From Mesonia aestuariivivens (GTDB lineage Bacteria; Bacteroidota; Bacteroidia; Flavobacteriales; Flavobacteriaceae), in NCBI RefSeq assembly GCF_019311235.1, contig NZ_JAHWDF010000006.1, forward strand, positions 124,001 through 188,000: a stretch of 64,000 nt of DNA. Reading direction: 5' to 3'. This document shows, in pieces, positions 363 to 56,801 of the stretch (its first letter is position 1; each line of letters begins with the position of its first letter). A model generated the notes under the pieces. It made no database searches. It saw only the letters and a list, made by a program, of their open reading frames with translations, and was not told the DNA's origin. The translations under genes and the position numbers were made by a program.

Positions 363-385
363 CTTATTTCTATAAAAATGGTTTT

Positions 386-487
386 GCGTTAGGGATTGAA
401 GGGCGTGTTTAAGCTCTTTTATTTTTTACCCGAATAAAAAAATAAAAAGCGAGTAATGAAAGCCCGACCCGATAGGGAAACGCCCTA
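386..487 (-). repeat. Structured 3'-end repeat, copy 1 (after queD)
   Basis: Read on the minus strand the element starts TAGGGCGTT and ends CAATCCCTAACGC. The end pieces GCGTT and AACGC can pair as a closing stem. Inside are CCC/GGG and a long A/T hairpin around 410-450 (CTTTTTATTTTTT against AAAAATAAAAGAG). The stop codon TAG of queD is the first three bases of the element. Two relatives lie at 23219-23316 and 56254-56337, also directly after a gene and in its orientation. Function is unknown; a 3'-UTR or termination element is the simplest reading. Confidence 0.75.
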
Positions 488-23209: not shown

Positions 23210-23218
23210 AATATTAAT

Positions 23219-23316
23219 GGCGTTGCCCGATAGAAAAATCGGGATCGCGCTATTCGTTATATCTTTTTTTGCCACTTATCAAAGCAAAAAAAGGATGCCA
23301 CTCCTATCGCTAACGC
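23219..23316 (+). repeat. Structured 3'-end repeat, copy 2 (after scoB, divergent)
   Basis: Starts GGCGTTGCCC and ends ATCGCTAACGC, so GCGTT/AACGC can close the element as in the other two copies. CCCGAT/ATCGGG forms the first hairpin, and ATCTTTTTTTGC pairs with GCAAAAAAAGGAT as the apical one. Sequence in the stems differs from the other copies while pairing is kept. Orientation again follows the upstream gene. Confidence 0.6.
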
Positions 23317-23356
23317 ATTTTCAACTAAAATTTTAAATTAAAATAAACGTTCTTAA

Positions 23357-55497: not shown

Positions 55498-56256
55498 ATG
55501 ATTAAATGGGTGCTTGCGGTATTAGGTTTTGTTTATATGAGACTACCTGGTGCAGTAATGGGTTTTATATTAGGTACTTTATTAGAGTTATTTCTTAAAA
55601 AAGGAGGAAGCGCTCATAAAAGTGTTTCCGAAATGTTTGGGCAAGAACGAGAAGTCTCTATGGGAGATTTTGAGTTAAATTTACTGACTCTCTCTACTAT
55701 TGTGGTAAAAGCAGACGGAAAAGTAAGTCAAAAAGAGTTAGATTATGTAAGAAGTTACTTTGTAAGTGCCTATGGTAAAGAAAGAGCAAACTCAACCTTT
55801 AGGGCTTATAACGAAGTAGTAAAAAATAGACAAATTGATGCGGGAAGAATTTGTGCTTATTTACACATGCGTACAACTTACGAGGTTAGGCTTCAAATTT
55901 TACATTTCTTATTTGGTATAGCACATGCAGATGGCGATATCTCTAAAGGAGAATTACAACAACTAGCTAAAATAGCGGGACATTTACGCCTAGGTCAACG
56001 CGATTTTGAAAGTATAAAAGCCATGTTTAATGTCTCGGGGAGAGCACCTGGAGACACTTCTTATGCTTACAAAATTTTAGAGATCGATAAAAATGTGTCT
56101 AATGCAGAGGTAAAAAAAGCTTATCGTACCATGGTTAAAAAATACCACCCCGATAAACTGCAGCATATGGATGAGGTACATCAAAAAGGCGCGCGAGAAA
56201 AATTTAATAACGTGCAAGAAGCCTACGAGCAAATTCAGAAAGAAAGAGGTTTTTAG
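55498..56256 (+). CDS. TerB-like and DnaJ-domain membrane protein (DjlA-like)
   Basis: 252 residues. A short hydrophobic N-terminus (about 2-30, VLGFVYMRLPGAVMGFILG) is followed by a TerB-like domain (about 52-172, VVKADGKVSQKELDYVRSYF) and a C-terminal J domain with H217-P-D in KKYHPDKL. This is the DjlA layout, a membrane co-chaperone that stimulates DnaK. The last codon is followed directly by the structured repeat, which provides the TAG stop. Confidence 0.9.
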   Translation: MIKWVLAVLGFVYMRLPGAVMGFILGTLLELFLKKGGSAHKSVSEMFGQEREVSMGDFELNLLTLSTIVVKADGKVSQKELDYVRSYFVSAYGKERANSTFRAYNEVVKNRQIDAGRICAYLHMRTTYEVRLQILHFLFGIAHADGDISKGELQQLAKIAGHLRLGQRDFESIKAMFNVSGRAPGDTSYAYKILEIDKNVSNAEVKKAYRTMVKKYHPDKLQHMDEVHQKGAREKFNNVQEAYEQIQKERGF

Positions 56257-56337
56257 GGCGTTCCCTTCGGGCGGGCTTTACGTTACAATCTTTGGCTTCT
56301 AGCGTCGCCAAAGGATTTTCACTTCAATCCCTAACGC
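56254..56337 (+). repeat. Structured 3'-end repeat, copy 3 (after the TerB-DnaJ gene)
   Basis: Starts TAGGGCGTTCCC and ends CAATCCCTAACGC. GCGTT/AACGC closes the element, CCC-ttc-GGG forms hairpin 1, and ATCTTTGGC pairs with GCCAAAGGAT as the apical hairpin. The TAG stop of the upstream gene and, on the other strand, the last codons and TAG stop of the thioredoxin-like gene (56331-56333) both lie inside it. Confidence 0.8.
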
Positions 56338-56801
56338 GAAATCTTGATAAGCTGCAACATTTTTTCAGTAGTTAAGTAGGTAAATTTTCTGTTAATTACC
56401 TTAAAATCGTTATTAAGTAAAATAATGGCAGGAAGTGTAAAAGCTTGGTTTTTACGACTGGCTAGCAATTTTGCCAGTTGATGGGTGGGGTTTCGATGAG
56501 TTTCGACTTCCTCATTAATAAAAGTGTTTCTTTCAAAAATAATAGTGTCGGTTGTTTCTGCATTCATTTTTAAGGCATAAAAATTTTCCGATAATGTTTT
56601 TATGACTTCTTGATTTTGAAAAGCGTGCCGATCCATCTTCTTGCAAAACACACACCAATCGGCATAAAAGTATATGAAAACTGGTTTAGTTTCTTGGTGT
56701 AATTTTTCTTGCAGCTGTTTAAAATTAAGCCAATCAATTTCGGCTTGAGCAAAATTACTTCCGCAGTAAAATAAAAGCGATAATAGAAAAAGATATTTCA
56801 T
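56331..56801 (-). CDS. Exported thioredoxin-like protein
   Basis: 156 residues with a signal peptide (about 1-19, ending NFAQA) and a thioredoxin fold with C50-VF-C53 in YADWCVFCKKMD. It is DsbD-gamma/thioredoxin_7-like and is probably periplasmic, acting in thiol reduction. The final residues Ser-Arg and the stop TAG come from the structured repeat. It lies 85 nt downstream of the TonB-dependent receptor gene. Confidence 0.88.
   Translation of the reverse strand: MKYLFLLSLLFYCGSNFAQAEIDWLNFKQLQEKLHQETKPVFIYFYADWCVFCKKMDRHAFQNQEVIKTLSENFYALKMNAETTDTIIFERNTFINEEVETHRNPTHQLAKLLASRKNQAFTLPAIILLNNDFKVINRKFTYLTTEKMLQLIKISR

Follow-up and report, generated by a model that had tools for sequence, protein, structure and literature searches.

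What are the structured repeats that lie directly behind genes in Mesonia aestuariivivens, and what keeps their fold in place? The question was raised by three elements in a 64,000-nt stretch of the genome (the window, taken at its full length), for which a preliminary description had proposed a shared design with GGCGTT(n)CCC at one end, CTAACGC at the other end, a CCC/GGG hairpin and an apical hairpin. The three elements are real, and the ends given by our covariance model R1 lie 1-2 bases from those first proposed. Both end motifs are present in 3 of 3 copies, the CCC/GGG hairpins occur as CCCTTCGGG, CCCTATCGGG and CCCGAT..ATCGGG, and the apical stems TTTGGC/GCCAAA, TTTTTTTGC/GCAAAAAAA and a long A/T stem were all found.

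Copies 2 and 3 are matches of the Rfam family RF01705 (Flavo-1; gathering cut-off 42 bits), both on the strand opposite to that of the preliminary description, and their membership is secure. Copy 1 has no RF01705 match even at E ≤ 1 and was placed in the family via R1 only; its membership is near secure. R1 was built from 11 copies of the same genome, aligned to a structure drawn by hand in which an outer stem and a third hairpin are included, and it detects all three copies of the window, with E-values that are rough and refer to one genome. Nine copies of the genome, including copy 1, were read as type 3 (see below), and 0 of the 9 are in the Rfam match list. The features of the window are as follows.

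56255 to 56339, Flavo-1 strand minus: copy 3, a Flavo-1 element (Rfam 52.4 bits at 56265-56342 minus; R1 57.7 bits, E = 1.1e-10).
56258 to 56262: first side of the outer stem P1 of copy 3, pairing with 56333-56337 (read; DNA-parameter fold; double changes).
56333 to 56337: second side of the outer stem P1 of copy 3 (read; DNA-parameter fold; double changes).
56263 to 56271: hairpin P3 of copy 3, CCC-TTC-GGG (read; helix 6 of the covariation analysis).
56273 to 56331: long arm P2 of copy 3 (read; DNA-parameter fold).
56254 to 56256, plus strand: TAG stop of the TerB/J-domain gene, at the edge of copy 3 (sequence read).
56331 to 56333, minus strand: TAG stop of the convergent thioredoxin-like gene, inside copy 3 (sequence read).
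23217 to 23318, minus strand: copy 2, a Flavo-1 element after the CoA-transferase subunit B gene (Rfam 62.4 bits at 23239-23330 minus; R1 74.5 bits, E = 5.7e-15).
384 to 486, plus strand: copy 1, with a type-3 arm, between the QueD/PTPS-family and LpxH-like genes (R1 51 bits, E = 5.7e-9).
485 to 487, minus strand: TAG stop of the PTPS-family gene, at the edge of copy 1 (sequence read).

The stops of two convergent genes thus lie at or within the ends of copy 3. An extra Flavo-1 copy (L121, G000:C56:123005-123157) is found just left of the window, in the opposite orientation and 1.2 kb from copy 1; together with copy 1 it encloses the LpxH-like gene and a small ORF, and the same pair is present in the relatives G009 and G011.

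The preliminary description had proposed a covariance-model search for further copies. At E ≤ 0.01, R1 has at least 46 matches in the M. aestuariivivens genome (G000), at least 59 in G009 and at least 55 in G011; all copy numbers in this work are lower bounds, as at most 150 (26 in the family survey) of thousands of first-look candidates were scored. Of the 160 R1 matches of these three genomes, the 150 listed were carried into the locus analyses. The RF01705 model gives at least 34 matches in the M. aestuariivivens genome at E ≤ 0.001, 23 of these above the cut-off; it has matches in 21 of 31 relatives and none above the cut-off in 14 control genomes. The suggestion that the repeat is common in Flavobacteriaceae was borne out, since R1 at E ≤ 1e-4 has a match in at least 107 of 149 genomes sampled from the family. 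In one genome, G008, the sole copy in the Rfam list (L049) lies directly upstream of a putative tmRNA gene, as judged by eye.

The Rfam Flavo-1 model has the same core as the elements described here, with internal loops in P2 and on the same strand; it differs in that the model as run lacks the P1 closing stem and the P3 hairpin, either of which may be drawn in the additional files of Weinberg 2010 (PMC2864571). The available text of that paper classifies Flavo-1 as probably RNA and probably not cis-regulatory, and considers single-stranded DNA for a different motif, STAXI. The accessible part of a review (PMC9029176) assigns Flavo-1 no function. That the preliminary description knew of no function for the repeat agrees with the available text of these two sources and of PMC9723704, and no study of Flavo-1 function was found in searches of the openly available literature.

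The fold is a three-way junction formed by an outer stem P1, a long arm P2 and a hairpin P3, in the order P1, P2, P3, P1 on the Flavo-1 strand. P2 starts from GGG.../...CCC, consists of short helices broken by internal loops, and carries a long apical stem at its tip. P3 is CCC-loop-GGG and ranges among copies from CCC/GGG to long A/T hairpins. In copy 3, the P2 base pairs 56273-56275 with 56329-56331, followed by internal loops and the apical stem TTTGGC/GCCAAA.

To quantify the pairing, we compared the 44 aligned copies of the M. aestuariivivens genome with shuffles. Pairing was found in 96.2% of 1039 pair cells versus 77.4% in shuffles, and 195 cells carry double changes versus 49.3, a value reached by 0 of 500 shuffles; because the alignments were fitted to the models, these counts lean towards structure, and the shuffles ignore kinship. 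Double changes occur at 22 of 25 pairs, and sliding the partners by 1-3 columns lowers pairing to 37-55%. For 99 aligned copies of two genomes the values are 97.1% and 23 of 25 pairs. The outer stem varies among loci (GCGTT, GCGCAA, GCATA, GCAAT, GTGTT and others), mostly together with its complement, so that 98-99% of P1 cells pair, and all five P1 pairs show double changes across copies. The pair statistics of both sets of copies support the proposal that covariation reflects a selected structure.

Conservation extends to unpaired positions. An A at position 8 is present in 70 of 70 groups and an A at position 12 in 69 of 70. The first internal loop is GNA/GNA in 84 of 142 readable elements, 10 of the 152 elements being unreadable at this loop; the number 152 was obtained after one partial match at L206 had been dropped. 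By sequence motif, which lets in chance cases such as L220, the arms fall into 77 ATCC-TTTT-like, 51 AGCT (type 3, as in copy 1), 21 CCC and 3 other arms. Apical loops often hold other palindromes (CTTCGACTCCGCTCGAAGTGACA, GTGCTTCGACAAGCTGAGCATGAC, AGATTCCTGCCTACGCAGGAA; e.g. L103:4611-4727, L109:2501-2606 and L115:2501-2600). Palindromes of this kind are also seen outside the elements, so the repeats seem to be nested.

A G.T mismatch on one strand is an A.C mismatch on the other, and the ratio of the two therefore tells which strand folds. In the core helices (P1, the P2 base and two inner P2 helices), the Flavo-1 strand has 15, 16 and 13 G.T versus 4, 2 and 3 A.C mismatches in the three genomes, or 31:8 when each orthologous group is counted once. 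Split by the way the neighbouring genes run, the ratio is 15:3 for gene pairs on the Flavo-1 strand, 11:4 for pairs on the opposite strand, 2:1 for convergent and 3:0 for divergent pairs. A folded mRNA would reverse the 11:4 class, which is not reversed, so that the constraint is independent of gene direction. For control, a model from the reverse complements (R2) was used, from which P3 was left out because its alignment was shifted; two partial rows were dropped from the resulting alignment of the loci. On the strand of the preliminary description, the same loci gave 23 A.C and 7 G.T in the core. The asymmetry weakens to 49:23 once the apical stem and P3 are included (first alignment, summed over the four gene classes), and over all 22 pairs of the control it is gone (31:31). 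The strand asymmetry is thus confined to the core. Constraint of the core structure on one strand, whichever way the genes run, is well supported.

Thermodynamic folding points to the same strand. With DNA parameters, 146 of 152 elements show better recovery of the conserved pairs on the Flavo-1 strand than on its complement; with RNA parameters, 119 of 152 do. In copies 2 and 3, P1, the P2 base and P3 are closed at the DNA-parameter minimum of this strand, and the RNA-parameter minimum fails to close them; in copy 1, neither minimum does. Within the Flavo-1 strand, DNA parameters are better in 84 of 152 elements; recovery is about equal, so that folding favours neither material. In the RNA-seq study of Flavobacterium psychrophilum by Guerin 2021, the available text describes Flavo-1 hits in sense or antisense alike, many of them outside transcribed regions (PMC9723704). 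From the gene-independent strand constraint together with this published transcriptome, we infer that the folded material is most likely DNA.

With respect to replication, the Flavo-1 strand shows a weak lagging excess of 34:20 (p 0.08) and 28:20 (p 0.31), the origin having been placed from 20 sampled stretches per genome. Replication-strand bias is expected of some single-stranded DNA elements, and its weakness here speaks against the DNA reading.

The gene neighbours of the 150 places were determined with a longest-ORF script; 9 places inside ORFs and 2 at contig edges were removed, leaving 139. In 59 of these both genes run opposite to the Flavo-1 strand, in 43 both run along it, 21 are convergent and 16 divergent. 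The preliminary description had observed that each element follows a gene on its own strand, which holds for all three copies of the window and fails genome-wide, where tandem gene pairs of M. aestuariivivens show one orientation 16 times and the other 16 times. Orientation is therefore near random, and the core constraint lies on the opposite strand; both speak against the 3′-end processing, termination or stability element on the sense strand that had been considered.

A preference for a certain gene order was discarded. The 102 tandem, 21 convergent and 16 divergent places compare with 47, 8 and 8 gene pairs in the window, and the only deviation, assessed on this window alone, is that divergent gaps hold few elements for their share of intergenic bases. 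Neighbouring copies form inverted pairs 17 times as '-+' and 6 times as '+-', with 3 '++' and 1 '--', orthologous pairs being counted repeatedly; after collapsing these by hand the numbers are about 8:5:2:1, and no claim is made.

The position of the element relative to gene ends is asymmetric. In the M. aestuariivivens genome, the P3 edge is closer to a gene than the other edge, with medians of 16 versus 72 nt. On the P3 side, 51 of 81 opposite-strand genes end within 12 nt of the element, and 20 of 81 end inside its first bases. Copies were found between leuA and leuC, leuD and leuB, and cas1 and cas2 (the last being L108, G000:C34:46286-46384), all likely operons, inside which they would be transcribed.

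E. coli REP/BIME elements protect or insulate transcripts, and Flavo-1 might likewise act in cis on mRNA, as a hairpin that lies between genes or behind them and does so in either orientation. The edges close to stop codons, the copies in likely operons and the conservation per locus (see below) agree with such a role. The core-mismatch asymmetry is independent of mRNA orientation, however, the gene orientation is near random, and many of the F. psychrophilum hits lie outside transcribed regions in the available text of PMC9723704. On balance, we regard an mRNA element as unlikely.

The same genomes were used to follow individual sites. Orthologues, defined as mutual best matches by flanks, were found for 32 of 44 M. 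aestuariivivens elements in G009 and for 32 of 44 in G011, and G009 and G011 share 47 of 54; both flanks matched in 26, 29 and 41 cases, respectively. At the compared loci, G000 shares about 82% identity with each of the two relatives, and G009 and G011 share about 93% with each other. Most copies occupy the same site in related species. Compared with the 20 nt next to it, the base of the element (P1 plus the P3 side) shows higher conservation in 30 of 32, 31 of 32 and 37 of 47 pairs, and the P1 hexamer is identical in 28 of 32, 29 of 32 and 45 of 47 orthologues versus 16-19% of paralogue pairs. In the two deep comparisons, the base was closer to the orthologue than to the best paralogue in 14 cases, less close in 14 and equal in 4, and the second comparison gave 13, 13 and 6, in a test that is strict because the best of about 50 paralogues was taken.

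The copy 3 site was followed through 80 loci. An R1 element lies beside the same gene in seven of them, i.e. four Mesonia, two Zunongwangia and one Christiangramia, and in one Mesonia it is found about 850 nt further on. At the site itself, double changes have occurred in place, for example from TTTGGC/GCCAAA to TTTAGC/GCTAAA. There is no R1 match in 73 of the 80 loci, including three Mesonia loci (L300, L302 and L307), so that either loss is common or gain at this site was repeated. Repeated gain is possible, though the seven loci share the arm type and the P1 sequence GCGTT. At the L098 site, a putative trpA/trpB gap judged by eye, the element is also present in G003 and G015 (R1), and G009, G011 and G013 have other sequence instead.

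The arm behaves differently from the base. Between G009 and G011, 9 of 47 orthologous elements have an arm identity below 0.85 while the base is at 0.85-1.00, and at these nine sites the replaced arm in G011 matches another G011 locus at 0.80-0.98. Both copies in the leucine operon change arm type between G009 and G011, with P1 and P3 unchanged. At the longer distance, 19 of 32 and 21 of 32 arms are nearer to a paralogue than to their orthologue. The P1/P3 base is thus locus-specific and conserved, and the P2 arm is replaced by arms that resemble those of other copies. This apparent exchange was seen on draft sequences, one of them metagenome-derived, and such assemblies could produce false arms.

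Signs of spread were compared between genomes. The best 19 of 26 copies in G058 have a median pairwise identity of 0.81 and their flanks one of 0.60, the likeness of the copies being inflated because they were picked by score; for Mesonia copies, pairwise identity is 0.63-0.66 (all pairs). This suggests a more recent spread in G058 than in Mesonia. Four G058 copies (L379, L382, L383 and L384) terminate a repeated stretch of about 400 nt or more, the homology of which stops within about 50 nt of the P3 edge and begins, in L383, at the 5S rRNA; L383 also has an Acido-Lenti-1 RNA match between the 5S rRNA and the Flavo-1 copy. In G030, L032 and L052 have about 60 nt upstream in common, by eye the start of a short open frame that runs into the element, and this may be a small gene that ends in Flavo-1 and was duplicated.

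A non-autonomous mobile repeat, one of the options raised in the preliminary description, would be a miniature DNA element of the MITE or REP type that is moved by an enzyme in trans and whose old copies decay. The copies of G058 that are alike in unlike flanks, the 0 to 39 Rfam matches listed per genome in 16 Mesonia genomes (lower bounds), and the orthologous sites without the element or with a different repeat are as expected of such an element. The search for a mobilising enzyme gave a different picture. Neither a Y1 transposase (PF01797) nor a match to a RAYT protein query was found in the M. aestuariivivens genome. The copy-rich genomes G000, G009 and G013 have no PF01797 match; three each are found in the copy-rich G022 and in G024, which is free of Rfam matches. 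In total, Y1 is present in 6 of 13 copy-rich genomes versus 3 of 10 without a Flavo-1 match. No R1 match was found within about 1.5 kb on each side of Y1/RAYT genes or gene pieces (8 and 22 partly overlapping loci). RAYT/Y1 was therefore rejected as mobiliser, being missing from the genome in question, without link to copy number and without adjoining elements. In addition, long constraint in place with a locus-specific P1 is unexpected for decaying insertions. We consider a mobile element improbable, and no enzyme to move it was found among those tested (Y1/RAYT and integron integrase). In two Mesonia genomes, a copy was found just upstream of a gene for a tyrosine recombinase of 410 to 420 aa, at L194 (G000:C73:51403-51512) and at G013:C21:371434-371523.

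Flavo-1 resembles several known systems in part. The attC sites of integrons have an invariant GTT/AAC core and act as a single strand that folds, its base constant and its end variable. Flavo-1 shares this layout, and differs in that it lacks a fixed GTT/AAC. An integron integrase (TIGR02249) was found above the cut-off in 0 of 31 genomes; the weaker matches, present in 31 of 31 genomes and in all 14 controls, were taken for general tyrosine recombinases. An attC site was accordingly rejected on the variation of P1 among loci and on the integrase result. ERIC and the pneumococcal BOX elements are old, structured repeats between genes, and their inner parts are modular and variable; the likeness to Flavo-1 lies in the age, the structure and the variable interior, and the difference in sequence and host. 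With REP/RAYT systems, Flavo-1 shares multicopy intergenic palindromic repeats. In the Bacteroidetes, genes of RAYT subclass 2.6 have atypical structures on their flanks, and further copies of these structures occur in other parts of the genome, according to the available text of PMC6006769. The subclass 2.6 gene was not found in the M. aestuariivivens genome, in contrast, no Flavo-1 lies beside the genes examined, and G006 has a subclass 2.6 RAYT gene and no Rfam-detected Flavo-1.

Signals of transcription start and stop were examined as well. A run of five T in the 12 nt that follow the element was found in 0 of 44 M. aestuariivivens copies on the Flavo-1 strand and in 3 of 44 (including copy 1) on the other, and terminator scans of the three window sites found none at copies 2 and 3. 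These counts and scans speak against an intrinsic terminator of the type hairpin then U-run. One terminator-like match (398-419 plus; 0.3 expected) falls within the copy 1 arm and is on the Flavo-1 strand of that copy. Of 70 groups, 8 have the promoter motif TAnnTTTG upstream, against a mean of 4.2 and a maximum of 11 in shuffles, and 8 have it on the other side; near the edge it occurs in 4 of 70 (shuffle mean 1.1, maximum 6) and in 6 on the other side. TAnnTTTG is not clearly enriched versus shuffles or versus the other side, and thus gives no clear sign of an own promoter.

These results bear on the view that the copies are genes for trans-acting small RNAs, which would fit the Rfam type 'Gene; sRNA' and a strand preference of the sort that suits a dedicated transcript. 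The promoter motif no more frequent than on the other side, the missing T-runs after the element on the Flavo-1 strand and the many F. psychrophilum hits that fall outside transcribed regions (available text of PMC9723704) make this very improbable.

At L206:2501-2589 (G009:C92), the P2 arm has become a near-perfect palindrome and the GNA loops are lost, as replication within the hairpin would give. Hairpin arms can thus be rewritten, and some of the pairing could stem from mutation and not from selection. That template switching explains all complementarity of the arms, with no selection for structure, is hardly credible: 439 double-change cells versus 45 G.T cells, the L206 arm, and an apical stem and P3 that are free of strand asymmetry would fit, and the strand asymmetry of the core, the conserved unpaired bases and GNA loops, and a base better conserved than its flanks would not.

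Taken together, we tentatively favour, as an account that may well be right, that Flavo-1 is an old mosaic intergenic repeat, the Flavo-1 strand of which folds, most likely as single-stranded DNA, and is read by a putative protein. The element would be exposed as a single strand in, for example, replication, recombination or negative supercoiling, and a putative flavobacterial protein would recognise the junction as well as the unpaired bases that are conserved; no such partner was found. The base of the three-way junction would stay at its locus and be inherited vertically, and the arm would pass between copies within a genome by non-reciprocal transfer, perhaps via short-homology conversion or template switching. 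Such exchange would be tolerated because the arm need only remain a long imperfect hairpin. The family would have started as a spreading repeat, most old copies of which are now fixed. The stronger statement, that Flavo-1 is not an RNA gene but a two-part, protein-read element folding as single-stranded DNA, with a vertically inherited junction base and an arm that moves between copies, is a possibility that we hold to be rather doubtful.

New in this work are the strand constraint, the near-random gene orientation, the orthologues in place, and the fixed base with exchanged arm. Since 2010, Flavo-1 has figured as a probable RNA with no assigned function. The strand test, together with the fixed base and the arm that is exchanged, gives it testable properties, and these point the search for its partner to DNA-binding proteins. 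If the arms truly move between fixed bases, this would be an unusual mode of evolution for a bacterial repeat.
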